The position numbers were made by a program, and so were the translations under genes. Source: a virus. Taken from it: 64,000 nucleotides of DNA. This document shows positions 4,106 through 45,600 of this stretch, piece by piece (position 1 is the stretch's first letter; every line of letters begins with the position of its first letter). Location of the stretch: the IMG/VR virus record IMGVR_UViG_3300042293_000555, positions 21,046-85,045 of that record, one strand, 5' to 3'. Under the pieces are notes generated by a model, which saw only the letters and a program-made list of their open reading frames with translations, had not been told where the DNA came from and did not search any database.

Positions 4106-6031
4106 ATGATAGACTATGTATATGACATTGAGTTATATTCAAATTTCTTTCTTTTATGTGCACAAAACACTAAGACTAAAGAGAGAATATCTTTTGAAAT
4201 ATCTCAGAGAAAAGTAGAAACTGTTAAGTTAGTGGATTGGTTATCTACTAACATCAGGTTATTTGGATTTAACTGCATAGCCTATGATGGTAAAATACTA
4301 CAAAAGTTATTAGAGCATACTTACTTAAAAGGTAAAGATTTAATAAAAGTACTGAAGAAGCATTCAGATAGACTGATATTAGATGAAACCTATGCTAAAT
4401 TTTCTCGTAAGTTTACACAAAAACCTAATGTAGACTTATTTTTACTACATCATTTTGATAATGATGCAAGAAGAACTTCTCTAAAAGATTTAGAGTTTGT
4501 ATTCAATATGCCTAATATTCAAGAGTTACCTTTTGATTATACTAAACCTGTTACTCTTGCACAAATGTCTATTCTTGTAGACTATTGTTGGAATGATATT
4601 GATGCTACTCAAATATTGTATGACAGATCTCAAGAAGCTTTATCATTAAGAGAAAGTTTATCTAATACTTATGGTGTAGATATGCTTTCTTGGAACTCAC
4701 CTAAAATAGGTGAACAAAGTTTTGCATTTAAGTTAGCAGAAAGAATTGGTCCTGCAAAATTACAGAAGAAAAGTCCTCGTAAATCTATAGCTATTGGTGA
4801 CATTATCTTCCCTTATATACAGTTTGAAACAGTAGGATTTCAAAAATTACTATCCTATTTGAAAAAAAAGGTAATCACTGATACTTACAAAGTTTTTAGT
4901 GAGTTACCATTTGAAGAACTAACAGAAATAGAAGGTCATTACAATGTATATAAAACTAAAGGTGTACAAAAGAATCTCAATATTGTACACGATGGATTTG
5001 AGTTTGTATTTGGTACAGGTGGAGTACATGGTTGTATTGATCCAGGAGTATATCTTGTAGATGATGAACACACTATTGATGATATTGATGTATCTTCTTA
5101 TTATCCTAACTTAGGTATCAAGAACAAATTATATCCTGAACATTTGGGTATAGAGTTTTGTGATGTTTATGGTGAGAGATATGAAGAACGTGGTATATAT
5201 CCTAAAGGTAGTGTTACAAATACTTCTATCAAGCTTGAACTCAATGGAGTATATGGTAAGAGTAATTCTAAATTCTCACCATTCTATGACCCCAAGTATA
5301 CTATGGCCATTACCATTAATGGACAGCTTTTACTTACAATGCTTGCTGAACAACTTATGAAAATTAGTCAGATACTTCAGATAAATACTGATGGTGTAAC
5401 TATTAGAGTTCATAAATCACAAAAGGAAAATGTAAATGCTATCATTGAATGGTGGCAAAAACTTACTCAGCTTACTTTGGAAAGTGCAAGTTATTCTAAG
5501 ATGGTTATCAAAGATGTATCTAATTACTTAGCTGTTTATACTAATAACAAGGTAAAGAGAAAGGGTGCTGCATTTAAAACTTTAACAGAACTTGAAATGC
5601 ATGAGAATTTATCTTGTGTAGTAGTTCAGGAAGCTATATCAGCATATTACATTTCCAATACACCACCAATACAATATCTTATGCAAGAGTTAGAGAATGG
5701 TTTATCTAAATTTTACTCAAAAGTAAAAATACAGAGAGATCACAAACTTGTAGCAAGGTATGAAGATGAAGATATACCACAACAAAGAGTTACAAGATAT
5801 CTTATTACAAATACAGGATGCTCTCTTATTAAAATTATGCCACCAATAAAGGTGAAAGAGAGAGAATCTGAAGTTGAAGCAGGTTGGAAGTGTACACCAT
5901 GTAATAATTTGACTACAATGAATTTAGAAGAATTAAAACAGAATCTAAACTTAGAATATTATCTCTTACAAATAAACAAAATCATAGATGGAATCTCTAA
6001 CGGCAGGAAAAAGAAAAAAGCTGCAAAGTGA
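4106..6031 (+). CDS. DNA polymerase, family B, with 3'-5' exonuclease
   Basis: Replicative polymerase of 641 residues. The exonuclease domain is N-terminal: Exo I has D7 and E9 (YDIELYS), Exo II is the FGFN..AYD region near residue 50, and Exo III is YCWNDIDAT near residue 155. Polymerase motif A is DIDVSSYYP (D328), motif B KLELNGVYGKSN (K376, N380, Y383, G384) and motif C NTDG (427-430, catalytic D429). The first residue of motif C is Asn where many family B enzymes have Asp. The compact length and short A-to-B spacing suit the crAss-like phage polymerase group. It overlaps the helicase gene by 44 bases and heads the replication operon. Confidence 0.96.
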   Translation: MIDYVYDIELYSNFFLLCAQNTKTKERISFEISQRKVETVKLVDWLSTNIRLFGFNCIAYDGKILQKLLEHTYLKGKDLIKVLKKHSDRLILDETYAKFSRKFTQKPNVDLFLLHHFDNDARRTSLKDLEFVFNMPNIQELPFDYTKPVTLAQMSILVDYCWNDIDATQILYDRSQEALSLRESLSNTYGVDMLSWNSPKIGEQSFAFKLAERIGPAKLQKKSPRKSIAIGDIIFPYIQFETVGFQKLLSYLKKKVITDTYKVFSELPFEELTEIEGHYNVYKTKGVQKNLNIVHDGFEFVFGTGGVHGCIDPGVYLVDDEHTIDDIDVSSYYPNLGIKNKLYPEHLGIEFCDVYGERYEERGIYPKGSVTNTSIKLELNGVYGKSNSKFSPFYDPKYTMAITINGQLLLTMLAEQLMKISQILQINTDGVTIRVHKSQKENVNAIIEWWQKLTQLTLESASYSKMVIKDVSNYLAVYTNNKVKRKGAAFKTLTELEMHENLSCVVVQEAISAYYISNTPPIQYLMQELENGLSKFYSKVKIQRDHKLVARYEDEDIPQQRVTRYLITNTGCSLIKIMPPIKVKERESEVEAGWKCTPCNNLTTMNLEELKQNLNLEYYLLQINKIIDGISNGRKKKKAAK

Positions 6032-7085
6032 TGCTACACTTGCAATCTTAGACAATTCCTTTACTGGAATTATTTGTATAGCACCAAGAGTAGGTAAAAG
6101 TAAGATTATATGTGATGCAATCAAACCTATGAAAACTAAAAAGTTTCTTATTACAGCACCATATAATACAATTTTAGAATCTTGGAAAAAAGAATTTGAA
6201 AAATGGAGAATGAATCCAAAAAATATTACACTTATTAATCAGAGAAGTTTAAGTAAAGAAGACTTATCTAAGTATGATGTAATAATATGTGATGAAGTAC
6301 ATACTCTTAGTGATGCACAAATGTTATTGTTAAAAGATTTTAAAGGAAGACTATTAGGTGCTTCAGGTTCTATTTCAAAAGAAACTGAAAAAACTTTAAA
6401 GTTAGAATTAGGTCTTCAGAAAATATTTGAATTTACTATAGAACAAGCTATAGAGATGGGCATTGTTGCTGATTATGAAATTATCTTAGTACCTGTTACA
6501 TTAGATGCTACTAACAAGTATATTGAAGCAGGCTCTAAAGATGCAAAGTTTCTTACTACAGAATATGCTAATTATCAGTATCATACAGCACAATTTGAGA
6601 AGTTTAAGAAAATGGCTTGGAACAATAAGAAATTTGAATTTGTAAAAATGGCAGAAGCTTCAAGAAGAGCTGAACTTATTTACAAGTCAAGAACTAAAAT
6701 TGAAAGAGTTAAAAAACTTATCAAAGACCAAGAGAGATGTCTTATATTTACTGCAAGAACAGAAGTTGCTGATGAGTTTGCTACAGGTTATCACTCTAAA
6801 GTAAATCCCAACATTCTTACTCAGTTTATGGATGGAGAACTCAATAAACTTGCTGTATGTGAGATGACTAATATGGGTGTAACTTTTCCTAATCTTAAGA
6901 CAGGTATATTTCATCAGATGAGAAGTGGAGAAGAATCTGCTATTCAAAAGGTAATGAGAATGTGTAATGTTGAAGAAGATGAAAAAGCTACTATTTATAT
7001 AGTGTATTATGCAAATACTGTAGATGAAGAATGGACTAAGAAAGCTCTTATTGGTTTAAATCCTGATAAAATTAAGATAATCTAA
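5988..7085 (+). CDS. SF2 DNA helicase (DEAD/DEAH-like)
   Basis: Helicase of 365 residues starting inside the polymerase gene. Motif I is APRVGKSK (residues 32-39, with Arg-Val before the GKS), motif II is DEVH (102-105), a GASGS motif III follows, and the C-terminal RecA domain has LIFTAR (motif IV region), TNMGVTFPN (motif V) and QKVMRM (motif VI, about 320-325). The arrangement resembles the UvsW/DEXH group found next to PolB in crAss-like phages. It probably works in replication fork remodelling or recombination. The stop codon begins an inverted repeat that opens a structured RNA region. Confidence 0.93.
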   Translation: MESLTAGKRKKLQSDATLAILDNSFTGIICIAPRVGKSKIICDAIKPMKTKKFLITAPYNTILESWKKEFEKWRMNPKNITLINQRSLSKEDLSKYDVIICDEVHTLSDAQMLLLKDFKGRLLGASGSISKETEKTLKLELGLQKIFEFTIEQAIEMGIVADYEIILVPVTLDATNKYIEAGSKDAKFLTTEYANYQYHTAQFEKFKKMAWNNKKFEFVKMAEASRRAELIYKSRTKIERVKKLIKDQERCLIFTARTEVADEFATGYHSKVNPNILTQFMDGELNKLAVCEMTNMGVTFPNLKTGIFHQMRSGEESAIQKVMRMCNVEEDEKATIYIVYYANTVDEEWTKKALIGLNPDKIKII

Positions 7086-11676: not shown

Positions 11677-12648
11677 ATGTACGGCTATCATACAGATATA
11701 ACTAATACTAACATTGATGAGTTCTTTAATAGAATAAATCAAGAAGAAGTCTTCAAACACTTGTTTGGAGATTTTGAAATTGGTACTTATATTACATCTC
11801 CTTTTAGAGATGATGGTAGTCCTGGATGTTGGATACAATGGAGTGGTAAAAAACTATATTTTACTGATTTTGCTTCAAATTGTGGCAGAGTTAATTTAGA
11901 TGCTTTAGGTATAATTCAAAAGAAATATAATCTATCTGTTCGGAAAGCGATGGACTTTATATTATCTTTTGACTTTACTAAAGAACCTGAATATCCTAAG
12001 TTTTCTCCCACTTCTATTGTATCTTCATCTAATAATTCTATTTTAGAATTTTGTCCAAAACCATTTGATGAGTATCATAAACTGTATTGGTCACAGTATG
12101 AGATAACTTCTACTCAACTTATCTTAGATAACATATTTGCTACTAAATGGTATAAGGTAAACAATCACACATTTAACCCTTATCCTGTAGAAACTACTTA
12201 CACTATTAGTTATTCTACCAGCATAAAAATATGTAGACCAAAGGCTACATCTCACAAATGGACAACAAATGCTACCAAAGATGTAATAGGTGGCACAAGA
12301 TCTCTTCCATTCTTAGGTAAAAATCTTATAATTACCAAGTCGTACAAAGATTGGAGAGTACTTACAAATTTAGGATTTCATACAATGTATTTTCAAAATG
12401 AAGGTATGTTTCCTACAATGGAAAATCTTTACATTTACTTAGAAGCATTTGACAATGTATACATCTTATTTGATAATGATGCAGCAGGTGTTAATGCTTC
12501 TTCTAAATTAAAAACTTACATAAATGATTCATTTACAGGTAAAGTAGAATCACTACTATTACCTACAAAATCTAAAGACCCTGCTGATGCAATAAAAGCA
12601 GGTGAAAAACAAAAATTAATTTCATTTCTAAATCCGTTATTACAATGA
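11677..12648 (+). CDS. DNA primase, DnaG/Toprim type
   Basis: A 323-residue primase. The N-terminal part (about residues 40-90) has the SPFRDDGSPG...TDFAS pattern of DnaG-type zinc/RNAP-like domains, although the full CHC2 zinc ligands are not evident. The Toprim core includes IITKSYKDW and LFDNDAAG (D266, D268), followed by KDPADAIKAG near the C-terminus. It should synthesise primers for the PolB/DnaB fork. Its stop overlaps the start of the Ubl gene (ATGA at 12645-12648), so replication and the Ubl cassette are linked in one transcript. Confidence 0.88.
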   Translation: MYGYHTDITNTNIDEFFNRINQEEVFKHLFGDFEIGTYITSPFRDDGSPGCWIQWSGKKLYFTDFASNCGRVNLDALGIIQKKYNLSVRKAMDFILSFDFTKEPEYPKFSPTSIVSSSNNSILEFCPKPFDEYHKLYWSQYEITSTQLILDNIFATKWYKVNNHTFNPYPVETTYTISYSTSIKICRPKATSHKWTTNATKDVIGGTRSLPFLGKNLIITKSYKDWRVLTNLGFHTMYFQNEGMFPTMENLYIYLEAFDNVYILFDNDAAGVNASSKLKTYINDSFTGKVESLLLPTKSKDPADAIKAGEKQKLISFLNPLLQ

Positions 12649-13352
12649 GAAAAGTTAAAGTTTATTCAACAGTATCAGGTTTAAGACAATTTGATTCATC
12701 AGCAACTATTTGGGGAGAACTCAAATACGAGTTACAAAATGAAGGTTATTCATTTTCTAATATGACAGTTACTGAAAACAAAAGAAACAGTACCTTAATG
12801 TTAGATGAAGCAGAATTACCTGAAGAAGATTTTGTACTAATGCTTACACCACAGAAAACTAAAAGTGGTGCAATGAGTTATGGTGAAATCAGAGCACAGA
12901 TTAAAGAAGCTTTTATGTCTTATGGAACAGCTGCTGCTACACACTTTAATGAAGGAAAGAACTATACCAATAAATCTAAAGATGAGTTAGAATTTCTTTT
13001 AAATTCTTGGTTAAAGAAAATACCTACAAGTAAACAAGTTGTACTACCTAAAGCAGAAGTATCTCCTGCACCTATTAAGGTAGATACCAGTTATACAGAA
13101 GACTTAGAAGATGATGAAGATGACTACGAAGATAATGAAGAAGATGAAGATTCTGATGAAGTAGCAGAAGTTATTGAAGCTATTTCTAACCTTAACTGGA
13201 ATGGAAGATATGATGACTTTAACCTTGCTATTGCTCTAATTAGAGGTGAGAAATCTGCTAAGAATCTAACTTCATATAATGTAGCATCTGTAAAAATTAC
13301 TACATCTGAAGAAGATGCTTGGATTGCTAAGATGAGAAATAAAGGGTTATAA
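12645..13352 (+). CDS. Putative ubiquitin-like protein (Ubl)
   Basis: A 235-residue protein whose first 75 residues have a beta-grasp/Ubl pattern: strand KVKVYS, a helix near IWGELKYELQ, then strands around MTVTE, STLMLDEAELPEEDFVLMLTP. This resembles the Ubl partner (protein C) of the PRTRC-type prokaryotic ubiquitin-like systems. A helical segment, a strongly acidic linker (residues 145-178) and a C-terminal helical module follow. The protein ends in NKGL, a near-terminal Gly that peptidase trimming could expose, but no classical GG is present. It is immediately followed by E2-like, JAMM and E1-like genes, which supports the call. A terminator separates it from them, allowing higher Ubl expression. 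Confidence 0.62.
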   Translation: MRKVKVYSTVSGLRQFDSSATIWGELKYELQNEGYSFSNMTVTENKRNSTLMLDEAELPEEDFVLMLTPQKTKSGAMSYGEIRAQIKEAFMSYGTAAATHFNEGKNYTNKSKDELEFLLNSWLKKIPTSKQVVLPKAEVSPAPIKVDTSYTEDLEDDEDDYEDNEEDEDSDEVAEVIEAISNLNWNGRYDDFNLAIALIRGEKSAKNLTSYNVASVKITTSEEDAWIAKMRNKGL

Positions 13353-13372
13353 ATTGTTGCTTGCTCATTTTT

Positions 13373-13409
13373 AGAAGACTGTTATGTAATGTAGCAGTCT
13401 TCTTTTTTT
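13373..13409 (+). terminator. Intrinsic terminator between Ubl and E2 genes
   Basis: Stem AGAAGACTG/CAGTCTTCT (13373-13381/13395-13403), then seven T. It ends the replication/Ubl transcript; partial read-through would make Ubl more abundant than its enzymes. Confidence 0.88.
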
Positions 13410-13429
13410 ATTTAACTAATTCTAAAATT

Positions 13430-14689
13430 ATGATAAACGTAGGACATCTAATTCTTAGAGCATTTAAACAAAGAACTTTAGATAACATTTCAAAATTTTA
13501 TAAACCTGTAGAAAATATTATAACTGAAAGATTTAGAAAAGTAAATTTAACACCTATTTTTCCTTTCTATAATCAAGTAAAACAAGGTTTAGATGCTTGG
13601 GGTGGTGAATATGAGTTGACTTTAAATTATGAAATAAAGTCAATAGCTATAAATGATGTAAATACTTTTCTTCATTATTGTCACAATAAGAAAAAGCATC
13701 ATTTCAGTTATCCTTTGTATGACATTGTAAATTCAATTAACCTTAATGGTACTTTTACTAATAGTTTTATATTCTATAATCCAATACTACAAATTACATT
13801 ACATTATCCTGAAGTAAAAATTGAAAATGAGAATAAGGAATTTCTAAATTTAAGAAATTTCTTTGTCAGATTTAATATTAGTCTTGATGGTAATGTTAGT
13901 GAGTTAACAGGTAATAAAACTACCTATACAACTGCTGAATATGATAAAAGATATATTCATTCTCATTTACATACTCTTAGTACAAATTATAAATTAAAAT
14001 TTGATAATTTTTGTTTGGGTACAGGACAACCTATATCTTTTGCTAAGATAATGCTTGAAGAAGTAATTAAATCTAAACAAGGTATTAATGATGCTATAAA
14101 CTATTATTGTCAAAATATAAATGTAGTAGTTAATACTGAAAGTCTTGCTGGAACACCTTATATCAGATTAAGTGGAGTATCAAATAATTATGTAGATTTT
14201 AATTCAAGTGATGTAAGTGTTTTATGTAGTTCTGTGTTTGATTATCTTAGTAAAATGGATTTAAGTAAAATTAAATCTGATCTTTTTAAAATTGGTGCAG
14301 TAAGAGTAGTTAATAAAGATGTCAAACTTACTGATAAAGCAGATGTAGTATTGTTTATAGATCCTGTTTTATATGATTTTGATAAAGTAAAGTCTATACT
14401 TAATATTTCAAAATTTATATCTGTTAAATACAATGGTGTAGATGTTAAACTGTACGAAGTTTCATCTGCAACATCTATTGTTGAACCTATTTTTATAAGG
14501 TTTAATGGTAAAAAGTTTTATTTTACAATAGATAATCCAGCTATTTATTCACCTGAAAAGTTACAAATAACTTTTTCACAACCATTTAAAAAATATGTTA
14601 GACAATTTATCAAAACTCTCTACTTATCAGCAGCAATTGTTGAACGAGAAACCATTAAAGAAAGTACAATTGCCTTTCCTGAACCTTAA
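13430..14689 (+). CDS. Putative E2-like conjugating protein
   Basis: Start at ATG 13430; an upstream non-ATG start at 13361 would fall before the terminator. The 419-residue protein has a central region like bacterial E2 (PRTRC protein B-type) folds: a YPEV turn, strands NFFVRFNISL, then RYIHSHLHTLS (H177, H179), and DNFCLGTGQP with C195 in the CLG context typical of the E2 active site. The N-terminal 70 and C-terminal 180 residues are unassigned; the C-terminal part has a repeated beta pattern. It would take Ubl from the E1-like enzyme encoded at 15736. The gene overlaps the JAMM gene by 95 bases. E2 assignment rests on the Cys motif plus context. Confidence 0.6.
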   Translation: MINVGHLILRAFKQRTLDNISKFYKPVENIITERFRKVNLTPIFPFYNQVKQGLDAWGGEYELTLNYEIKSIAINDVNTFLHYCHNKKKHHFSYPLYDIVNSINLNGTFTNSFIFYNPILQITLHYPEVKIENENKEFLNLRNFFVRFNISLDGNVSELTGNKTTYTTAEYDKRYIHSHLHTLSTNYKLKFDNFCLGTGQPISFAKIMLEEVIKSKQGINDAINYYCQNINVVVNTESLAGTPYIRLSGVSNNYVDFNSSDVSVLCSSVFDYLSKMDLSKIKSDLFKIGAVRVVNKDVKLTDKADVVLFIDPVLYDFDKVKSILNISKFISVKYNGVDVKLYEVSSATSIVEPIFIRFNGKKFYFTIDNPAIYSPEKLQITFSQPFKKYVRQFIKTLYLSAAIVERETIKESTIAFPEP

Positions 14690-15743
14690 TGGACAACCAA
14701 AAGTTATTTTATCTAATCTTTTATGGGAAAAAATGCAGTTTTTGTGTAACCATATTAGTACTGTAGAGTGGAGTGGATGTATATTTTATGAAATTCATGG
14801 TGCATTAGATAAACCTGAAGAGTTACAAATCTTTGTACATGATATGATTCCTTTAGATAAAGGTACAACAGGATTTACAGAGTATAATTTTGATGGAAGA
14901 GTTATTGCATATATGACTGAAATGGAATATTTTGAATACAGGATAGGACATTTACATTCTCATCACAGTATGAAAACATTTTTCTCAGGCACTGATTTGG
15001 AAGAAGTAAATGAAAACTCTGAACACATTAAACCTTATCTCAGTATTATCATCAATAATGCTTATGATTTTTCTTGTAAGTTAGCATTCAGGTTAAAAGT
15101 ACTTAATCCTACTATCTATGAATATCAGGAGATTGATAATGTACCTAAACAACTTGTGATACAACAATCTGATGAGTATGTTGCTAATTATGATTGTTTA
15201 GTAATCACACCAAAGAAAGAATTTAGTGTAAATCCTTCTTTCTTAGCTCAGTTTAATGAGATAATGAAACCAAAACCATCTAAATTTCCTACTTATATAG
15301 CTAATACTAAACCTATTGGGTTTAAAAGTGATCAACTTGAATTTGAATTTGATGATTTCTTTGGTTCACTTGATTCTCCAACATCAGATAGGAAAGGTAT
15401 TGATGAAGTGTCTGATAGTGGAATTACATTAGCAGAGTTTGAGAAATTCTATTGTTATTTACTTAGGTTAGGGTTAGATGTACCAGGAGATACTATGGAA
15501 AAAGTATTGGAAGATTTAGATGAATCAGCAAGAGCTGAAGATTTTAATTTAGAACAGTTTGCATATAATCTAAAGAAAGATTTTCCTAAGAATTTTAAGA
15601 AGTTTTGGAATGTAAAAATATTAACTAAAAGAGAAGAAGCAAGTGAGTGGGAAGAATTTACTGATGAACTTATGTTTGCATCAGATGAATTTCCAATCTT
15701 AGATTCTCTTTTGGAACTCTTAATGTCACCAAATCATGAGTAG
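14595..15743 (+). CDS. JAMM/JAB metallopeptidase (deubiquitinase-like)
   Basis: A 382-residue protein with a complete JAMM zinc site: E58 (VEWSG), then H121-S-H123-x7-S131-x2-D134 (HLHSHHSMKTFFSGTD). In this family the Glu, two His and Asp form the active site that cleaves ubiquitin-like tails or isopeptides. The MPN fold fills about residues 20-180. The remaining 200 residues are acidic and helical, with no known domain. It starts 95 bases inside the E2-like gene and overlaps the E1-like gene by eight bases, so all are co-translated. Probable role: maturation of the Ubl precursor and/or removal of conjugated Ubl. Confidence 0.92.
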   Translation: MLDNLSKLSTYQQQLLNEKPLKKVQLPFLNLNGQPKVILSNLLWEKMQFLCNHISTVEWSGCIFYEIHGALDKPEELQIFVHDMIPLDKGTTGFTEYNFDGRVIAYMTEMEYFEYRIGHLHSHHSMKTFFSGTDLEEVNENSEHIKPYLSIIINNAYDFSCKLAFRLKVLNPTIYEYQEIDNVPKQLVIQQSDEYVANYDCLVITPKKEFSVNPSFLAQFNEIMKPKPSKFPTYIANTKPIGFKSDQLEFEFDDFFGSLDSPTSDRKGIDEVSDSGITLAEFEKFYCYLLRLGLDVPGDTMEKVLEDLDESARAEDFNLEQFAYNLKKDFPKNFKKFWNVKILTKREEASEWEEFTDELMFASDEFPILDSLLELLMSPNHE

Positions 15744-16470
15744 AGAAAGATATCAAGATGCATTATGGTATAATAAACCTGTAAGAATATTAATTTTTGG
15801 AGCAGGTGGAATTGGCTCTTGGAGTTCATTCTTTCTAACAAGAGCAGGTTTTGATGTTAGAATTTTTGACTTTGATAGAGTTGAAGAACATAATCTTGGT
15901 GGACAAATGTTTCTACATCAAGATATTGGAAAGTTAAAAATTGATGCTGTAAATAATGTTGCCAGGTTATTTAACAATGATGATTATATGTTTAGGGGAA
16001 TGAACTTTAAAGTAGGTTCTAATTTCTCTTTTAATGATAGAGGTGGATTCTATGAATACAATCCAAGAATAGCCACTATTGTCATCAGTGCTTTTGATAA
16101 TATGGAAGCAAGAAAAAATCTATTTACAGCATTTACAGCAGCAAATAATACTACACCAATGTGGTTTATTGATGGTAGATTATTGATGGAGCAAATGAGA
16201 ATTTACTGTATCAACAAATCTCATCAAAAATCTATCATAGATTACATTGATGCTCACTTGTTTGATGATTCTGAAGTTGAAGAATTACCTTGTACAATGA
16301 AACAGGTTGGACATGGTGCAGCTATGATTGCTACTCACATTACAGGATTTGTTACTAACATTGTTTCCAATGAATTTGTATGGAGAGAAGAAGTGTTTCA
16401 AGTACCTTATATGTGGGATTACATTATTCCAACTAATTCTGTCACTCAAAAATTAGCAAGTGAATTATGA
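15736..16470 (+). CDS. ThiF/E1-like Ubl-activating enzyme
   Basis: A 244-residue single-domain adenylating enzyme. The nucleotide-binding GAGGIGSW motif is at about residues 22-30, the acidic strand end is DFDRVEEHNLGGQ (about 48-60), and a conserved Lys pair follows in GKLKIDAV. ISAFDNMEARKN is the typical Asp-containing segment. C186 in ELPCTMKQ matches the catalytic Cys loop of ThiF/E1 proteins. It would adenylate the Ubl C-terminus and pass it to the E2-like protein. It lacks the zinc CxxC pairs of MoeB. It overlaps both neighbours (8 and 4 bases). Confidence 0.92.
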   Translation: MSRERYQDALWYNKPVRILIFGAGGIGSWSSFFLTRAGFDVRIFDFDRVEEHNLGGQMFLHQDIGKLKIDAVNNVARLFNNDDYMFRGMNFKVGSNFSFNDRGGFYEYNPRIATIVISAFDNMEARKNLFTAFTAANNTTPMWFIDGRLLMEQMRIYCINKSHQKSIIDYIDAHLFDDSEVEELPCTMKQVGHGAAMIATHITGFVTNIVSNEFVWREEVFQVPYMWDYIIPTNSVTQKLASEL

Positions 16471-16949
16471 TAGCAGATTTGCATCCTATCTTTAAAACAG
16501 ATACTAATTATCCAAGATTAAAAGGTAGAAATTCACATTCTACAACAATGTATTCTCTTCATTTTGCAAAGTTTAATTTTCATAGTAAGACATCACTGGT
16601 ATTTGTAAATAAACCTATAGCAAATTTGACTAACTTAAATGAACACTTTACAAACAATAATTACTTTTATTATTTTAGTAAAAGTAACATAATAGTTTCT
16701 AAAGGATTAATCTTGGATAGTAATACATTAGAAGTACTTGTATTTGTACACATTAAACAAAGATATAGATGTTTTGGAGAAAACTGGTCAGCAATAACAT
16801 ATTACAGAAATTCAAGTCTTGTAATATATGTTGCAACAGAGTTAAATGTTAAAGTTGTTGAAAAATTACTACCTTTAAGTCAATTTATAAAAATAATTTT
16901 CTTACCAAAAGAAGACTTACAAAGGTTAGTATATGAAGAACACGAATAG
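16467..16949 (+). CDS. Unknown fifth member of the Ubl cassette (160 aa)
   Basis: Starts in an ATGA overlap with the E1-like gene. The 160-residue protein is basic and aromatic with alternating strands (MYSLHFAKFNF, NIIVSKGLIL, LEVLVFVHI, LVIYVATEL), suggesting a small alpha/beta domain. There are no Cys clusters, so it is not a RING finger. Coupled translation suggests a function with the conjugation enzymes, for example target recognition, but this is inference only. Confidence 0.72.
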   Translation: MIADLHPIFKTDTNYPRLKGRNSHSTTMYSLHFAKFNFHSKTSLVFVNKPIANLTNLNEHFTNNNYFYYFSKSNIIVSKGLILDSNTLEVLVFVHIKQRYRCFGENWSAITYYRNSSLVIYVATELNVKVVEKLLPLSQFIKIIFLPKEDLQRLVYEEHE

Positions 16950-17018: not shown

Positions 17019-17606
17019 ATGGCAAAAACTCCTAAAAACATTAAAGTTAAAACATTTATTTATGTTTTGGCTGACCCTGACACTCTTGAAATAAAATATG
17101 TTGGTAAAACTGTTAAACCATTAAAAATTAGATTAACAGGTCATATTTATTCTTGTAAAAAAGAAAAAAATCATAGGACAAATTGGATAAAATCTATTCT
17201 TAAAAAAGGTAAAAAACCTATAATAAAAATGATAGATTATTGTACATGGGATGAAAGTCAAAAATTAGAATATGATTGGATTATTAAATTCAAGGACAAA
17301 GGATATGACCTTGTTAATTTAACAAATGGTGGTGAAGGCAATTTAGGATTAAAACTTAGTAAAGAACGAAGAGATAATCTTATAATAGCTGTTTCTAAAA
17401 AAATTTATCAATATACTTTAAATGGAGTATTTATAAAAGAATTTAAAAATGCAGTAGATGCTGCTAAAGAATTAAATTTAAAACACTCTTCTAAAATTAA
17501 TGCTGCTGCAAGAGGGGTTAGAGGTAAAGCTGCAAACTTTTTATGGTCTTATGAAAAACTTAATTTTTTAAAAAAATATAAAAATAGATATGATAAAAAC
17601 AGGTAA
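17019..17606 (+). CDS. GIY-YIG homing endonuclease
   Basis: A 195-residue free-standing homing endonuclease. The GIY-YIG domain (residues 8-100) has FIYVLAD (Y in the GIY position), KYVGKT (YIG position), R in KIRLTGH, and LEYDWIIKF with the catalytic Glu. NLTNGGEGN is the typical end of the domain. The C-terminal part (about 125-180) has a NUMOD1-like repeat (IYQYTLNGVFIKEFKNAVDA) that would bind DNA. It has its own promoter box and is unusually Lys-rich with A-runs, unlike its neighbours. This suggests a mobile gene inserted between the Ubl cassette and the nuclease genes. No intron is seen around it. Confidence 0.9.
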   Translation: MAKTPKNIKVKTFIYVLADPDTLEIKYVGKTVKPLKIRLTGHIYSCKKEKNHRTNWIKSILKKGKKPIIKMIDYCTWDESQKLEYDWIIKFKDKGYDLVNLTNGGEGNLGLKLSKERRDNLIIAVSKKIYQYTLNGVFIKEFKNAVDAAKELNLKHSSKINAAARGVRGKAANFLWSYEKLNFLKKYKNRYDKNR

Positions 17607-33689: not shown

Positions 33690-36600
33690 TTAAATACCAC
33701 ATTCATTTGTTTCTAATGTCCAAGGTTCCTCAGACAAAGATAATTCTTTTTCAGTAGCAGGAGAAAAAGTTTCTAAATCTAAATAGTCATCAGGATTAAA
33801 TACATCTTTAATGACAGTAAGTTTCTTCTTAGCTCTTGACAATGCTACATATAATGCCTGATTCTTAGACTTAGTAGAAGTACCATTTGATAAAATATCA
33901 TTCTTAAATACATAAACATTATTAAATTCAGAACCTTGAGCTTTGTGTGAAGTCAATGCATAACCATATTCAACAGATCTAAATGCTGTTTTATTTTTCT
34001 CATACATTGTTTTCTTAACTCTATCAGCTTCTCCTCTTGGTAATTTTGAATAATAGTTATACAATGATTTTTGAGCTGCTTGAAAAGCTTTAAAATCTAA
34101 TGATTCATCATTAACTCTAATGTTAAACTCCATTCCATCAGCAGACTTAATAGTAAGGTCATAAGCCATATATGTACTGTAAGACTCTTTGTTTGTTTTA
34201 GTATCATAGTAAGCTATAGCAATACCATTAGGTACTTCATTTACCTTAGTTACTTCAAAGTGTTGTCCATTATATACACCTATTTCTTCTCCAAACTGAT
34301 TCTTTAATTTCTCATCAGTAAATTGAGGAGATATCATTTCACCAACATTGAATTTACGTTTAGCACCCTGTTCACCAAACAACATTACTCTTGCCTTACC
34401 ATTCCAATATTTTCTGATTACATTAGAGAATGCTATAACCTTAGTTCCCCACTTATCTTTTTTCAAATCAGCCTCTATTGCTGCATCAATTTGATCACTA
34501 TCTTTAAATTGAACTTCATCACTATGCAACTTAGCTTCTTTACCTTCAAGTACATCCTTAACAATTGCATTACTTCTAACATTAGCTGCAACCATATTAG
34601 CTACTGTAAGTATCATTGAGTCTTTTTCTTGCCTCATTGATTTACTTAAGTGTGCAGTATAATTACCTGAATATGCAGTAAATGTAGGAGAATCTTGTCC
34701 TTCAAGTTTACTATATTTTTCTCTTATTGGTGGTAACTGTGCATTATCACCCATGAAGATAATCTTAGCATTAGGTGCAACAAGTTTTTGAACTTTAGAT
34801 AAATGTGCTAAAAACTCTTCATCAATCATAGAACATTCATCTATGATAATTAATTGTGCTCCACTCAATGGTGACTTACTTACATCAAAATATTTATCAA
34901 TCATAAATGTACCTGATGCATCATCTAATTTTAATCCAATCATTGAAGCTATTGTAGAAATAGTTGCTCTACTACCTATTGATTTCTTAAGAACTTCTTT
35001 TGCATTATGTCCAATAGCACCACCTACTACTTTTAATCCTGGATTATTACTCAATAACTTTTTCATGATAGTGGTTTTACCTGTACCACCACCACCTGTT
35101 AATACATAAGTTTTTGCTGATTTATCTTTAAGAAAATTATTCATTGAATCCAAAGCATTACTTTGTTCTTCATTGGCAAATACCTTTGGAAATAATTCAT
35201 AAGCTGTAAATGCACCTGATTCTTCAACTTCATTATTCAAATCAGTATCCTTATCATCAGACAAATCAACTTTCTTTTGAGTAAGGATTACAGGTGGAGT
35301 ATAATCTTTAAGTTTTTCAGCAAGTTCTGTTGGAGATTTTGTATCAAACTTAGCAAGCATAGCTTCAAACTTATCAATATTTTTATTGATAAAGTCAATT
35401 TCTTCAGGCACTGCAACAGCACCTGCTTCTTTAAAGTAGCTCTGAACAAATGGATAATTGTTGTAGTCTTCCAAATTAACATCTTTAATTAACTTTGACC
35501 ATTCTTCATAGTCATTGATAATCATATCATCAATGTTTAATACTAAGTCTTTAGCTTCAACCATAAAGTTGATTTCTTCTATATCAGCATTCTTCTTAGC
35601 TTCATTTGTTTTTTCAAATGACTTAACAATTTCTGCAAATCTAATCTTTGCTTCTTCCATTGTTGGGGCAACATCAATGAGTGAACCATCATCTGCTAAA
35701 ATCTCATATTCATTATCTTCATTTAAGAAAATACTAAACTTAGAAGTATCCCATACTGTAGTATCAATATCTATTTCTGCTGCTTCAACATCAGCTTTAG
35801 CATCCTTCATTACATTGAAAATCTCTTTAATAGCATTAGCAGTAATACTACCTTCACCAACTGCAATACCTAAATCACTAAACATTTGTTTAATGAAATC
35901 AAAGAACTTATCTACCAAATTCTTATTACCTGCACCATAATCTATTGCTGCCATTTCTGTCTGAAACTCAGGTTCAGTCATCATCATTTCTACAAACTCC
36001 AAGATGTCAGTAACTCCATAAAGTACTTTTGCTTCAAATTGTTTTAATAATATATTTTCATCCTTTTTAGCAGCTTCAATTTCAGTAGCTGTTTTTATAC
36101 TCTTCTGTTTTTTAATTTTCTCCATTACAGTATTGATACCATCAACACCATACTTTTTTTCTAACCCTAACCTTGCAGCTTTATAGATTTTTAATAAATC
36201 TGTAATGTGCTGTGGTATTTCACCAAGAGAATTGTTGAGAGTACCATCAGGATTAAGATACTTAAGTAGTTGATTATCAGTAATAGAGTGAACAGTTTCT
36301 TTAAGGAATACTCTAATCAGTTCATTTTTATCAGCTTGAGCAGTTCTTGGTGGTATAGTAATAGTGTTAGTGCCAGGATTATATTTACCCTTAGCAATAG
36401 TTTCACTTACTACAATCTTAGTTTCATTATTTACAAATGGTAAAATTGCTTGAGCAAGTTTCTTTAAGTCAGGACTAATAGATTTATCAGCAATCATATT
36501 CTTAATAACAGTACTGATATTGTCTATACCTAACCCAAATCTTTCTTTACTCACCATATTAGTAGCTTCTCCTGCTACAGGTAATGGTGTTTTAGGAGCT

Positions 36601-39600
36601 TTAACCTTTGTTTTCTTACGTGTAGTAATTAAAGATTTAACTGCCCTTGCTGATGCATCATATTCACTCATACCATTTATACCTGCAACTATAATCTTAT
36701 GATACTCTGTACCATGCAATCCCCATAAATGATTTTCACCATTAACCCTTAACACTATAAATGGTGGTGTTACTTCAGCAGTAGCTTTAAGGTCAGCAAA
36801 AGTAAACTTATCTTTCTTAATCAATTTTAACTTTTGTTCTTCATCAAGATTAACTAAGTTATCAAGTTTAGGAAGAATATTAGTATTATTTTGTGCAAAT
36901 TGTACAGCAAATCTACTTGGTACATAGTTTTCACTTCCAACTTCTTCAGATGTAATACCAAACTTAGCTGCTGCATCACCATTAAGATCAAGAGAAGCTA
37001 ATGCATCAGAGAATCCCATTCTTTTTAAATAATCTATAGGAATGAACTTAGCAAATTGAATTACTTCCTGTACACCACCTTCAAGAATAGCATAGTTAAT
37101 CATGTCTTGAGCTAACATCCTTGTATTATAAGTTTCACCATTAAATGATGGCAAGGATATTTTAGATTCCATTAACTGAAGTAATGCATTAGTCATATAA
37201 CTTTCATCAAAGTTAGCTGCTGCTGCATTATTAAATTTAATCAATGAAGGTTTACCGGGTACAGTAGATGTTTCATATTCCATTACTTGGAACAATTTGT
37301 TATTTGCAAAGTAAGGTATTTTCATCAACTTCTGAACATAAGAAGCTAATGATACTTTGTTATCTTCTCTTGAATCAAAGAACAACCTATGTCTTTCTCC
37401 CTGTGCAGTATTGTTCTCAAACAGTGTTGATTCTGCTGCAACAGTATTCATAAATTTCTTTATCTCTTTGAGAATCAATTGTTTTCTTTCAATTTTCTTA
37501 GACTCACTTACTTCTCCTAAACTTAGAATTGAGAATATTTCTTTGTTTAATGCTGCTACTACTTTTGAATTATAAGGAAAATGTTTCTCCCACAATCCAT
37601 TAGCAAAACTTAAACCTGCAATAGCAATATGTCCACTGATAGTAGTAGGTTTAACCCAAACATTGTCACCTAAATTTACAAATTCTTCTTTAGTCAACAT
37701 CTCAGGTGTACGTGATGTAGTTGGAGATGCAATTTCACCAATCAATGCTCCTGCATTTTTAATTGACTTATTCTTGAACAAAGATTTTATAGACTCAAGT
37801 TTTTCCTGTACTTCAGGTAAAGATTTACCTAAACCTTTAGAATCTATATTGATAGATGTCTGTACTGATCTAAGTTTTAAACCATACTCTTGAAGTAGTT
37901 GAAATCTCTGTAATACTTCCTGTTGGAATAATGCTGAATGATTTGTAAGCTGACCAAGCATTGTTGCATTAGTTAATGCTTCACCATTACCTTCAACAGG
38001 TTTAGCAAGAGAGAAACCATACTTTTTAGCAAGAGCATTAAGTACTTTTATTTCTTTATCAGGATCATATTCTGCAAGATTAGATGAAGCATTATTCATC
38101 ATCTTTACATAATCTCTAACAATAGGTTGGGATAAGAATAAGAATTGAATAGAGTTACCATCTGCACCTTTATCAAATCCTAACAATGCCATAACCTTAG
38201 ATATATCTAATGTTATACCATTAATATTTACCTTACCCATTACCTGTTCTTTCTCATTATCTACTGCAATATTTTGAAGTTCCATCAGTACTTCAGCAAT
38301 AGGTCTTTGTAAACTACTATAATCTTCAAGAATTTTTGCAAAAGCAGGATTAATAGATGCCTGACCTTCTATAAAATCATCAGCAAAGTTTTCATTATCT
38401 TTTATCAAATCAGCAGCATCATCACCTTCTTTAGTATTCAATGCTTTCAACCTTGCAATAATAAATTCTACTTTACTGACTTTCAATGTTTTAGGTTCAC
38501 CTAATTTACCATGAGATGTAAGTTCACCAAAAGTAAGTTCTAAAGGTGTTTCTTCATCTGCCATCAATATAAGTTGATTACCATTAGCTTTAGCCTGCTC
38601 AAATAAAGAATGAGAAGTTACATCTAAAGAATAAGCACCTGTACCTACTTTACCTGATGCACCTAAAAACATTTTACCTTTCTGATACTCAGAGTTCAGT
38701 GGACTAAAATTAGTATCATCTTTTTCTCCTTCCAAAATATCATCAATCATTTGGGCCTGTTGTTTAGCAAAAGCAATTGACAACACACCATTGATTTTCT
38801 TTTGAACTTCTGCATTAGAAGAAGTAAAGATTGATTTATGAATTTTAATCAGTTCATTCTGAATAAGTTTTTCTTCTAACCTACTTACATTCTTAGAGTT
38901 TTTATTTAATGGAATAATAGTACCACTATCTAATGATGTAGTCCATAAGTTATAAGCAGTTTCTTTATCTACGTCAAAGTCAAGACCTTTTTGTTCAGTC
39001 ATGTTTGCAGGTAAAATCATCAAATCACCACTCTCTTCAGGAAGGAATCCAACAATTTCAAACTGTGATGCAGATACGTGACCTGAAGTAGGAATCCTAA
39101 AAGAAGTTATTGACATTAATTCTTCAGCAATCTTACCTTTCTTAAGTCTGAATCCTAAATTTGTTTCATCAACATACTTATATCCTTTACCAGATGGATC
39201 TTTTTCCATCAGATTAATGAGATTACCTTCACTATCTCTAAACTTAGCAGGCACAAGTACTTGAGCTGAAATAAAGTTACCTTTGTCATCAAAGGTTGCA
39301 GGTTTTAAACTACCACTCCATTTATCAGTCCATACAATTCTATTTTCTTTAACATCATCAAGATTGTATTTAAACTTATAACCTTCTTCACTACCTGCTA
39401 CAAATGAGTTTCCAGGAAACTTCATCTTAACAATTCTACTTTGAACAATAGATACTAACAGTGATTCAAATCTATTAGAGTTAGCAGACATCCAAATAGG
39501 CATCTCAAATTTAAAGTCAGTAACCTTACCATCTTCATCATAGATATAAGATATTTGTAAAGCATCAATGTCTTGTTTACCATAACCTTTATCAATAGCT

Positions 39601-42600
39601 TCCTGTACTAAAAGTTTCTGTACTTTAACAGCAGTTGCTACAACATCAGTAGGTTTAAAAGTAACAGGGTCAACTCCCAACTCTTCACAAAGTTGTGTTT
39701 GTTTAAGTTTTACCAAATCTGCAAACAGATTAGTAAATTGTTCCTGTAACTGTTTACCTGAATAAGTTTGACCATTTAACTTAAATCCTTCAATATCCAT
39801 AATACCATTACCAAATAATACTTTGGTAAGCTGAGTACCCATACTTACAGTATCTTCTTTTCTTTTGAAAGATTTAAAAGGTACATCTAACTGAATCTTA
39901 AAGTCTTTTCTATTAAGTGTAAGAGATGATTCAAGAATTTTATCTACATCAAATTCAAGTTCATCTTTCTTACCTTCTTTTGGTTTCTTATGTTCAATAG
40001 CAGTGCCATCAGGATTAAATACTTTTAATGCATTGTTGTTTGCACCAACTTTATTACCTGATTCATAAGATGCTCTTACATGTTTACCAGTCTTCTTTTC
40101 TACTGCTTCCAAAGTTTCTCTGATAACATCCAACTCCATACCTTTAGTAAGTTGTGGAATAAGTGGATAAGATGATGTCTTAATATACATCATTCTCATT
40201 ACATCTTGTTCAGCATCATATATTTGACCTGTATATACAGGTTTAATAGGTTGTAATACTTTCTTTACTACTGCTCTTTGAGCTTCAGTCATATCTTCTA
40301 ATGGTGTACCATCAGCAAATAATTTCTTAGCTACCGCTATTTCCTGTGGAGTAATATTGATTGCAGCATCAGCTACCCTACCCATATTTTCTAATATGTG
40401 TAAGTGTTCCTGCCAGGTAGTATACTCCTGTGCATTAGTAGCTTCCATATAAAAGTAATTGTTTGACTTAGGATACTTAGCATTAAAGAACTTAATAGCT
40501 GATGCTTTAGCTGCTTTTAACTTTTGAGTTTCTAATTCATCTTTACCTTTTACAGGCATAGCCATAATCTTGTTATACTCTTCTCTGTCAAATGCTTTAT
40601 TATCCAACAACTTAGTTAAGAACTCAATGTTGTCAGCTATCTTATATCTGTCATCTAAGAATATTTGAATATACTGCTCATTCTCAGACTTATTAATTTT
40701 AGAACCTGGAGCTATCATTGCAGCTAATCTCTTACCTACATTTACAAAGGTTTCTTTAACCTGAGTCATTGCAGGATCATTTGGATTAGCTTTATAGTAT
40801 ACAGCAGGGTCACCAATAACTGTCATAAACATATTGGCATTAGCTATAATCTGATTAATCTCAAAGTCAAAAGCTGCAATTAGAGTATTGGAAATCTTTG
40901 AATCTTTGTCCTTAGCTTTTTTAATCTTCTCTAAATATTCTTTTTCAACAAAATCCAATTCTCCAAACTCATTCAATATTCCACCTTCTTTCCAATTATC
41001 CAATTTCTCATTAACTGATGACTGTACAAATGATTGAATAGCAGGAAGTATTTGAGATTTATAAGCATCAAGGTCTTTGAGAGTAGTGCTACTGTTATTG
41101 ATAAATTCTCTAAGGTTTACTTTTTTACCATTAGTAAGAGTAATCTCTAAATCATTTAACTTAGGTAAAAAGAATAACATACCAGCACCATTATCATAAC
41201 TCTTGATATTGGTTTTCTTATTCTTCTCTTTATAAGCAAACATTCTTGTAATTTCAGGTAGAGCAATTTGCTCATACAACAGTTCCAAGATATCTTCATG
41301 TACTCCTACATTTCCTTCACCATCAACATTATAGAAATTAGAATTAGTTAAATCAAAAGCAGGTGCTTTAACAACAACCATTGTTGACTTATCTGACATT
41401 GTTGGGAAAAAGAATCTTGATACTCTTAAAGGAATAGCTAATAACTTTTTACCTGTACTGTAAGTCTTAGTTGTTGAACCCTGTTTCATATCTTGAAACA
41501 TAGTAATCTTAGTAGCTTCATGGTCAGTATCACTTAATGTTGTGATATCATTATCCTTATAACTCTTCTTACCTTTTTCAGTAATAGCTGTCAGACCCAA
41601 GTGAGATATACCAAACTTAGAACCTAAACCAAAATCACCATTTGGATCCATCAAACTTAACCAAAGAGATTGTTTTGAAAAAGACAATGATTGAAGTTGT
41701 GTAAGGATGTCATCAGTTATCTTCTTTCTTTCTTGAGGTGATTTACTGGAAGCATCCTTCAACTCATTGAATCTGTCAGTAACATATTTCAATGCAGTAA
41801 ATCCATAAATAGATTTTTTACCATCTCTAAATGAATTAGTTACAATGTTTTTAGAATACTTTGACTGAAGATATGCAAGTGTTGATCTGATTGCACCATC
41901 ATCTAAAGGATTACCTGTAAGGTTAGTTTCTGATGTAAGGTCAGTTTCAACATTTCCATTTTTTACTCCCTGACACCAAGCTGCAAGTTTACCAATTGCA
42001 CCTTTAGTATTATCACTCTTCATAAAGAATCCTGTAGCTGTCAATAACTCACCATCACTAAATATTTTATTAGTAAAGATTTGTTCTATTGCTGCATCAG
42101 CTAATTCAATACCAAAATAAGATAACCATATTTGTACTTCACTAACAGCTTCTGCTCTCTCTTCTTTAGTCAACTTCATGTAACCCTTAACTGCTCTTCC
42201 TACAACGTGTTCTTGAAATGGTACAATAGTAAGAACACTTTCACCCTTTTCATTCTTATTAAGGGTTACACTATAAGGTGAACCATTCATTGTCATCTTC
42301 TTAGTGGTATCAAGTTTGTTACCTATCTGAGCTAAGAACTTACTGTGAGCAGGATTATTAGGATTAAGTGTAACTGTACCTGATTTACCTACACCAAGTT
42401 TACTTTTTACAATTTCAACTAATGGTTTATTATCTACATTTGCTAAATCTTTTGGACCTGCAAACCAAGAGTCATACTCTTCTAACAAATTATTTGCAAC
42501 ACCTGTATCAACAATGTATTCTCCATCTTCTTCAGTGATAAGTGGATTACTTACTGCAAATAAATTATTATTCCAAGTAGATGCAATCTTCTTAACAATA

Positions 42601-45600
42601 GCTGATTGATTGGTATCTGTTACCCTAAGTGTATACTTACCTGTATTAAGGTCAAAAGAATACATGGCAAACTCCATCTTCAAAGAGTGAGTGCCCATCT
42701 TATTTGCAAATGAATTTTGAATCTGTTTATCAGCAGCTCTTAATTTTACAATAGCTTCTTTTAACCAAGGATGTGTATCAATGTACAAATCTTCAAGTAT
42801 CTTCATCTGTATATCAAAGTCTACAGGTTGATCAGCAAGAAATGCTTGTATAGTATTGAATACAGTATCAAAGTCTACAAAGGTTGTTACACCAAATGCA
42901 CCTAATACAGGTAATCCTGTTTTACTATTAATGTTGGTAATCTTTGCTAAGAATAATCTAAGTTCAGATGTAATACTATTTTTACCATTCTTTTCTAATG
43001 ATGTCTGAGAATAATTATCTTCTCTTTCAGACATTGCTTCATCTTCACCATACTCATCTAATTCTTCAGACTCTTCTTTGTCAGGATTCTCATTCATTAA
43101 ATCCTTAGCTTCTATTGTAATTTCTTCTTCACCCTGTTCATTCTTAGTTGTCTTAGCTTTAATACCTGCAAACTTGTACAACTTATTAAATGCTTCATCA
43201 ACAATTGTATCTAAGTTCTTTTCAACAATTTTAAATTTATCTAATGCCACTTCATATTTGAGTACAAGTTCTTTTATCTTAGCATCATTTTCATAATTAG
43301 GTACTAACTTTAATGAAGCTAATGTATCAGTTAAATTTTTCTTATTATCTGACATTAAACTCATCAACTCTTTTTTAGCATTTACAGCAAGTTCTCCCTT
43401 GTTTAGTTTAGTAGAATTATCTAATTTAAAGTTGTCTGATAACTGATTAAATAAGAAGTCTATAAGTTGAGCTTGGTGTACCTGACTCAACCCTTCAATT
43501 TTAAATATTTGTTTCAAAAGTTCTTTAGCATCTTCATCTGCCATTTCAGCAGGTGAAAATGATTCTCTATCAACATCAGGTATCTCATCACTAAAATATT
43601 CATTGACCCACTTAATCTGATTTTCAGCTACTTTAATCAGGTGATTAATTTCATTGGCATCACCTTCACTTACTTTATCATCATTAGGTTCTAAGTGACT
43701 TACAATTTCTTTAGACTGATTAGTGTTTTCTGCAATAGCCTGTTTAGCATCTTCAAGTTTTTCTTCAGCAGTTTCACCAATGAAGTTGTAGTCTTCAATA
43801 GTACCTAATGCAGCATCTAATTCTTCATCAGTTAATACATCAGTTATATAAGTAGCTTTCTGTTTAACTATAGGTGCTGCTTTTTTAACAACTTCATTTG
43901 TTGTCTTTCTACTTACAGGTGCTTCATCTGTTGGAGCATAAGTATATACAGGTTGCATTCTTGTTACATACATAGGTTCTTCTTGAGTACCTACATTGTA
44001 ACTACCTATATTAGTTTCAAGATGATCTTTTACATACTCTTCATAAGTATCTGAAGATTGTTCAAAAACTATTTCACCATTTTGATTTTCATAAGCTTTA
44101 ATTACAGGAAGTGCTGATTTAAATGTTGGATTAAATAAAAGGTCAGGATGATTAAAGAACTCTTTAAGTAACTTTACCTTTTCATCAGTTTCAGCATTAT
44201 CCATAAATGTTTCAGCATCTAATATAACAGGTGCATCCATACCCGGAAACCAAAAAACAACATTTCTGCTTTCAGTATAAATATAAGGAAGTAGTTTTGT
44301 ACCACTTGTTTCCCAAGATTTTAATTTAATGTTATGTACCTTTTGTGCATCTTCCTGAATATTACCTGTTGTATTTATTTTTTCAGATTTAACTATTACA
44401 TTTTGACTCAATATTCCATCAAGAATTTTTATTTGATCTATTTCACCAAATGCTGTAGCAAAATGTTTTTTAGCAATTAGATAAGGTGTATATTTATTAT
44501 TTTTATGTTTATAATATTGTTTACCAACCAAATATGTAATAACACTTTGAAATAATGTTTCTGATTGGGTTGATGTAAGTTTTCTTGAAAAAGTAGGAAA
44601 TACCATATAAGTTGGTTCACCATTTTCATCAGTTCCCCATCTTCTTATATCTAAAGGTTGATAAAATAATTTCTTTTTTTCAATAGTTTCTTTATTTACA
44701 ATCTTACCTTCAAAAGGTTTACCATTAAACATTATCTTACCATGCTTATCCATTACTCCAATTTGAGATTGTGGACTTGCTTCACTAATTGATTTTTCTT
44801 TATCCAATTTCATTGGACTAAATGTACCACTCTCTTTCTTAGTAATTACAATGTTAAATGGTTTACCATTAGCTTTAGCATTAAGGGCAGCTCTTCTTAT
44901 CTTTCTTACTTTAGCAATTGCTTCAGCTCTCTGTCCTTCAAACTTATCCTGATACCACATTACATCATGTACAAATGCAACATAGTCACCATCCTCATCT
45001 TTAATAAGCATAGGAAGGTTATCTTCATATTCCTGAGTGGACATGAAGTTAGGATTCTCATCAAGTTTTCTTTTTAAATAACTCTTATATGTTTCTGTTT
45101 TTCTTTTACCTTTTTCATCTTTTAATACTGTACCATAAGCAGGATTTAAAGGATCTTCTTCTCTAACAGGAACTTGTAATTTATCTAACTCAGCACCTTC
45201 TAAAATTACAACCTCTAATACTGTACCTGGATTATATTGATCAGGATGCAGTAACTTTAAAGGTTTGGTAAGATTACCTTCATTAAGTCCTTCTTCACCA
45301 TACTCATATCCAATATCTACTAATGTTTCTCCATCTTCTTCAAATACAGTTGTTGTTGGAATAGCTTCTCTTGAAGCATATCCAAAAGTAGAATCTACAT
45401 TTTCCAACTCTACAGTTACTGTAGATGTAGTACTCTTAGGTAGATTAATAACTCTACCATCATCATTTAATTCTAATTTTTTTTCAGGTTCTAATTGTTC
45501 AGCAGTTTCTTCTAATACTTTTTCAGCAGCTTTTTCATCAGTGTGTTTTACTTCTTCTTCCAATAAACCTAACAGTTCATCAGCAAGAGATGCTTTAGAT

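Follow-up and report, generated by a model that had tools for sequence, protein, structure and literature searches.

A predicted virus-encoded ubiquitin-like conjugation cassette in the replication module of crAss-like and related phages

What is the function of the five genes that directly follow the primase gene of this virus? The window analysed here is a 64,000-nucleotide stretch of a virus record 85 kb in length, and a first-pass annotation made from its letters had proposed that these genes encode an apparently complete pathway for conjugating a ubiquitin-like protein (Ubl). An ORF check of the window bears out the positions given for all five reading frames (Table 1). The longest ORF for the E2-like protein begins with a TTG at 13361 and has an alternative ATG at 13430; the numbering of Cys195 counts from the ATG rather than the TTG. 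The genes had also been described as contiguous and mostly overlapping. This holds for four junctions, which overlap by 4 nt (primase–Ubl), 95 nt (E2–JAMM), 8 nt (JAMM–E1) and 4 nt (E1–fifth gene), but not for the Ubl–E2 junction, where there is a gap of 8 nt from the TTG start or 77 nt from the ATG start.

Upstream of the cassette, Pfam and PHROG matches identify a helicase and a Sak4-like annealing protein, followed by the Toprim primase; the named neighbours are helicase, Sak4, primase and exonuclease. The one long late gene of the virus that was tested resembles, in GenBank, only Flavobacterium FpV4-type phages, so the virus is likely to be a relative of Fipvunavirus. Farther along the window, a 5146-residue ORF on the minus strand (33690–49130) has other giant ORFs around it, as is usual for crAss-like phages. 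There is also a GIY-YIG-like ORF (17019–17606), placed after gene X and before the next conserved gene; it is probably a recent homing insertion, since it is missing at the equivalent place in four of the loci that we compared (L004, L007, L009 and L012).

Table 1. Cassette genes and adjoining primase in the window, and the alternative cassette in the same slot of other phages
Feature	Position	Strand	Evidence or context
Toprim/DnaG-type primase	11677..12648	+	PHROG 12622 1.2e-44; Toprim_2 8e-5
pro-Ubl	12645..13352	+	beta-grasp model vs SUMO1/ISG15/ubiquitin; Gly75; PHROG 15560 2e-21
E2-like protein, Cys195 and His179	13430..14689	+	Cys/His/Gly 90/90; model pLDDT >90
JAMM/JAB metallopeptidase with C-terminal extension	14595..15743	+	CSN5 9e-5; PRTRC_A E 2e-5; conserved metal/catalytic residues
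E1/ThiF-type adenylating enzyme, catalytic-type Cys186	15736..16470	+	Pfam ThiF 3.9e-15; UBA5 4e-13
Fifth conserved protein X, right after E1	16467..16949	+	found 3' of E1 in 66/116 loci; motif GLxxD
Amidoligase/ATP-grasp cassette in primase-UDG slot	L154 972-8001, L155 2231-7611, L157-L173, L195-L197	n/a	phages without the Ubl cassette

The E1-like enzyme is the most readily recognised member of the set. The initial reading of this protein as a ThiF/E1 enzyme with a catalytic-type cysteine is confirmed by its match to Pfam ThiF and by the presence of Cys186 (codon 16291–16293) in all 86 distinct sequences, as are R5, N53, K68, D121 and R148. Its best solved relative is UBA5, with MccB and PaaA also among the solved relatives, and it is homologous by profile to the ThiF protein of the plasmid PRTRC system (profile match 99.2%, E 1.6e-19). 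In MoeB, the arginine of the NLxRQ motif (R73) binds ATP phosphates. We take G56 of the phage E1 to occupy this position, which is Gly in 85 of the 86 sequences and is still Arg in the two PRTRC E1s that were aligned. With the ATP-binding Arg replaced by Gly, adenylation by the phage E1 could be altered. This Gly is accompanied by the invariant Arg148, in a DGR motif.

Several ThiF/MoeB models top the NCBIfam matches, and phage records carry thiamine biosynthesis labels. These observations would suit a sulfur-carrier or cofactor system of the ThiS/MoaD type, in which the E1 adenylates the Ubl for sulfur transfer and the JAMM protein trims it as in CysO-type pathways, with no conjugation taking place. 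We regard such a system as decidedly improbable. In contrast to sulfur-carrier E1 enzymes (ThiF/MoeB), the phage E1 lacks the zinc CxxC pairs, having only two single cysteines in the window protein, and the Ubl ends in KSG rather than GG. In addition, no sulfur gene was recognised among the neighbours examined, an invariant Cys is present in a co-conserved protein of the set, and it is UBA5 that heads the solved relatives of the E1.

The gene upstream of the E1 had been credited with a perfect JAMM motif, and this assignment stands: E58, H121 and H123 are each kept in 94 of 95 distinct homologues, and S131 and D134 in all 95. CSN5 is the nearest hit of the family profile. The match to PRTRC_A (profile match 77%, E 2e-5) was equalled by none of 60 decoys, and a signature HSH..FFSxTD is common to the phage JAMM and PRTRC_A. 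We predict that this protein is both the processing and the deconjugating enzyme for the Ubl. The genes for both enzymes have been invaded by homing elements. The E1 gene of L077 is interrupted by a group I intron (4950–6100; Rfam RF00028, 89 bits) that carries an endonuclease-like ORF, and L106 and L107 likewise have a split E1; in L122 (7937–9037) an insertion with an endonuclease-like ORF on the opposite strand splits the JAMM gene at its HxH catalytic motif (HTH). Because homing elements settle in strongly constrained sites, these interruptions fit a maintained enzymatic role for the cassette.

The first gene of the cassette was thought to encode a beta-grasp-like N-terminus, and the predicted structure agrees. 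Residues 1–75 (12645–12869) form a domain that ends in KTK-Ser-Gly75, modelled with a pLDDT of about 90 or higher across residues 1–70 and with the element order strand-strand-helix-strand-strand. In Foldseek, this model matches SUMO1, ISG15 and ubiquitin (probability 1.00; best E 7e-4); sequence searches of Pfam, NCBIfam, PADLOC and the PDB returned nothing usable for the Ubl. The boundary at Gly75 is sharp. Among 94 distinct sequences, Gly75 is present in all, Ser74 in 90 and Lys73 in 86, and 14 different residues are seen directly after the glycine. Thirteen of the 94 ORFs stop 1–3 residues past Gly75 (for example, KMKSGK-stop, KVKSGR-stop and EIKSGK-stop) and the others have poorly conserved tails of about 21–252 residues, that of the window protein being helical and acidic and 160 residues long. 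None ends exactly at Gly75. Identity is 20% in the tail versus 38% in the Ubl domain. The sharp boundary, the variable tails and the lack of any ORF ending at Gly75 suggest that a pro-Ubl is trimmed to expose this residue, and the JAMM protein is the evident candidate for the protease.

The presence of MccB and PaaA among the solved E1 relatives raises the idea of a peptide-modifying cassette, in which the E1-like enzyme would adenylate a phage peptide. This is highly improbable, given that the putative precursor is not a peptide but a folded Ubl domain with a conserved Gly75 and a JAMM partner. In the crAss group, the Ubl tails carry a C-terminal motif, EIDxMF, in nine clear cases (L018, L023, L024, L025, L119, L128–L130 and L132), and the motif occurs once at the N-terminus of an E2-like protein (L136) whose Ubl is tailless. 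It is perhaps a docking motif; a count of its occurrences led to no partner.

Does the remaining protein act as an E2? The first-pass annotation pointed to Cys195 and an upstream HSH. Cys195 (codon 14012–14014), His179 and Gly197 are each found in 90 of 90 distinct sequences, but the first histidine of the HSH, H177, is kept in fewer than 90%. Zinc binding by the HSH and cysteine was set aside because this first His is not invariant. The model has a core consisting of a helix (47–57), strands (60–74, 109–132, 138–151 and 160–167), the HSH, Cys195 and two further helices (201–215 and 219–235), with the strands, HSH, Cys and helices at pLDDT >90. This order of elements is compatible with E2 enzymes. 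Foldseek gave no significant PDB fold match and, among viral models, matches to phage proteins of its own group and to unnamed ones; no Pfam E2 family was among the matches listed for 72 E2-like members, and searches of Pfam, NCBIfam, PADLOC and PDB sequences provided nothing usable. Of the two folds expected at the outset, the beta-grasp was found, and the E2/RWD-like fold around Cys195 is a putative one.

This lack of an E2 match by fold or by Pfam is what would be expected if the protein were not an E2, and the E1 conjugated the Ubl directly or with the E2-like protein as a substrate or scaffold. We consider this unlikely because strands precede and helices follow an invariant Cys and His, as in E2s, and because the protein occupies the same operon position as PRTRC_B (PMC1779556). 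Furthermore, a weak local profile match to PRTRC_B at the Cys-x-Gly scores better than all 60 of 60 column-shuffled decoys. PRTRC corresponds to operon type 6d of Iyer and colleagues (2006), in which PRTRC_B is predicted to be E2-like (PMC1779556). We infer the E2 assignment from the place of the gene, the invariance of Cys195 and His179, and this small profile match.

The set extends well beyond the window. Profile searches of 139 loci identified the order Ubl–E2–JAMM–E1 in 116 viral loci, representing 89 distinct E1 sequences; the remaining 20 phage loci are mostly contigs that end inside the cassette block. The sole gap in the order that is not due to a contig end occurs in L090, where an 81-residue, divergent Ubl-like ORF with a TKAGN end lies just upstream of E2. 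The fixed order in 116 loci, together with residue conservation, excludes chance as an explanation for the cassette. Protein X was detected after E1 in 66 of the 116 loci and had no match in a Pfam search. Other Crassvirales had been suggested as a place to look for the same order, and the gut phage crAss001 (gp79–gp76, with gp79 as Ubl, gp78 as E2-like protein, gp77 as JAMM and gp76 as E1) is indeed among the annotated carriers, along with DAC15, cr85, cr111, cr126, cr128 and Flavobacterium FpV4. The concern that homologous ThiF–JAMM pairs might always occur without the Ubl and E2-like genes is answered by the same 116 loci, in which all four are found together.

Matches to the E1 were found in 77 annotated phage records. 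Annotations currently call the phage E1 hypothetical or a 'thiamine biosynthesis protein', and the JAMM protein of crAss001 and of several other phages a 'metalloprotease domain'; if our interpretation is correct, these labels need correcting. When 85,462 bacterial and archaeal genomes were scanned with the phage E1 alignment (a mixed phage and PRTRC E1 alignment being too diverse for scanning), a single 3.7-kb contig was recovered. The phage E1 lineage is therefore essentially viral. E1 and JAMM were not found in the sampled Intestiviridae (Carjivirus communis, crAss002 and cr110), in the sampled Suoliviridae (cr4 and cr273) or in the Steigviridae phi14:2 and cr108, indicating that the cassette is no general requirement for crAss-like phages. 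The original claim was of a complete set joined to the primase gene, with none described in crAss-like phages. The phage set of Ubl, JAMM and E1, with its E2-like partner and its fixed place at the primase, is strongly supported and far more widespread than proposed, crAss001 included; completeness is less secure, given an E2-like fold that has no significant PDB match. In the searchable open literature, we found no description of phage-encoded Ubl conjugation, a crAss ubiquitin or a phage PRTRC.

Taken together, we think it probable that the block is a virus-encoded Ubl conjugation system, built into the replication genes of crAss-like phages and of their Flavobacterium-type relatives. In such a system, the JAMM peptidase would trim pro-Ubl after Ser74-Gly75, the E1 would adenylate Gly75 and then load the Ubl on Cys186, and the E2-like protein would take it onto Cys195 and attach it to target proteins, from which the JAMM peptidase could also strip it. 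No E3, proteasome or known target was seen with the cassette. Our best guess is that the targets are proteins at the phage replication fork, of phage or host origin, since the cassette has an overlap with the primase gene and its slot is used in other phages by a second cassette that is predicted to form amide bonds.

That slot lies between the primase and uracil-DNA glycosylase (UDG) genes, where gene X is found together with the cassette in crAss001 and its relatives. Two phages without the cassette, Cellulophaga phi14:2 and cr108_1, encode after the primase an ATP-grasp ligase (RimK-like or other), a COOH-NH2 ligase and a glutamine amidotransferase; in phi14:2 these are followed by UDG. Using the COOH-NH2 ligase as bait, we recovered 63 viral loci; approximately 16 of these have the order primase–ligase–UDG, and none holds any of the four Ubl-cassette genes. 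In whole-record searches, 12 records with the ligase gave no E1 match and 17 with the cassette gave no ligase match; the E1 model used does match crAss001 and FpV4. The two cassettes therefore appear to be mutually exclusive at one site. Both types would form amide bonds on peptides or proteins, as Iyer and colleagues reportedly predicted for amidoligases in 2009, and the two cassettes may serve one shared purpose. A broader proposal, to which we give somewhat less than an even chance, is that a large phage group, which includes crAss001, the most thoroughly studied crAss-like phage in culture, uses Ubl conjugation as a core function of its replication module, replaceable at this locus by an unrelated amidoligase/ATP-grasp cassette that carries out the same amide-linked tagging of a shared target. 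If so, phage replication would include an exchangeable protein-tagging step, and the amidoligase cassette would provide a natural comparison, at the same site, for a Ubl system with a trimmed precursor.

Bacterial Ubl conjugation is used in defence, and the confinement of the cassette to phages could accordingly reflect an anti-defence device that acts on a host defence protein by tagging or stripping it, or whose JAMM peptidase removes CBASS- or Bil-type Ubl marks. This too we find unlikely. Counter-defence genes are usually variable and clustered elsewhere, whereas the cassette has a fixed primase-side position and very high conservation, and its JAMM peptidase is accompanied by a Ubl, E2 and E1 of its own. 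Conjugation of the Ubl to proteins during replication is the most likely function that we would predict for the cassette. Carriers include cultured phages with laboratory hosts (crAss001 with B. intestinalis, DAC15 with B. thetaiotaomicron, and FpV4), making the idea directly testable.

How does the phage set compare with known systems? It has two general features of Ubl pathways, a beta-grasp modifier with Gly75 and an E1 with an ATP-binding fold and catalytic Cys. In bacteria, Ubl conjugation has been described chiefly from defence and plasmid operons; the present viruses seem to possess the entire pathway, as a conserved element of their replication. Like Bil and related bacterial operons, which have a separate Ubl, E1, E2 and JAMM-type peptidase, the phage set has a separate Ubl, E1, E2-like protein and JAMM, but in a lytic-type replication module rather than a bacterial defence locus. 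In type II CBASS, the Cap2/Cap3 E1 domain and JAMM peptidase likewise act on a protein conjugate, whereas the phage E1 and E2 are separate ORFs accompanied by their own Ubl, with no CD-NTase found; in PADLOC, the cassette proteins gave only weak matches to fused E1–E2 models and to a JAB model. The UFM1 system shares a compact E1 (UBA5) with the active Cys in the adenylation domain and a Ubl made with a removable tail, a likeness computed for the E1 profile match only, but uses a UFSP cysteine protease where the phage has a JAMM. Lambda-type TAPI/TAPK proteins also pair a phage Ubl with a JAB peptidase, but lie within tail genes and have no E1 or E2 (PMC1779556).

Of the known systems, the PRTRC system of plasmids is the nearest relative, with operons of the form ParB-E-C(Ubl)-F-B(E2)-A(JAMM)-ThiF, some of which lack A or are rearranged. 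On present sequence comparisons the phage set is PRTRC-like but not a member, because it falls widely short of the NCBIfam cut-offs (ThiF, 44.2 bits, E 1.4e-11, versus 144.75 bits for TIGR03736; JAMM, 12.8 versus 101.8 bits for TIGR03735, both for the window proteins) and no ParB, E or F was found adjoining it. It also differs in the Gly that replaces the NLxRQ Arg of the E1 and in its Ubls, which would all have to be trimmed; most of the PRTRC C proteins that were sampled stop at the Gly. Profile comparisons bear out homology to PRTRC for the E1 and JAMM; the hhalign score of the Ubl against PRTRC_C was not significant, and the match of the E2-like protein to PRTRC_B was weak. Nevertheless, the core order C, B, A, ThiF is collinear with that of the phages, PRTRC Ubls end in KG or KG plus an extension, and both sets are carried on mobile DNA next to replication or partition genes. 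The phage cassette is a real, widespread and virus-specific variant of the bacterial Ubl-conjugation cassettes and is very likely active, with a putative E2 step.
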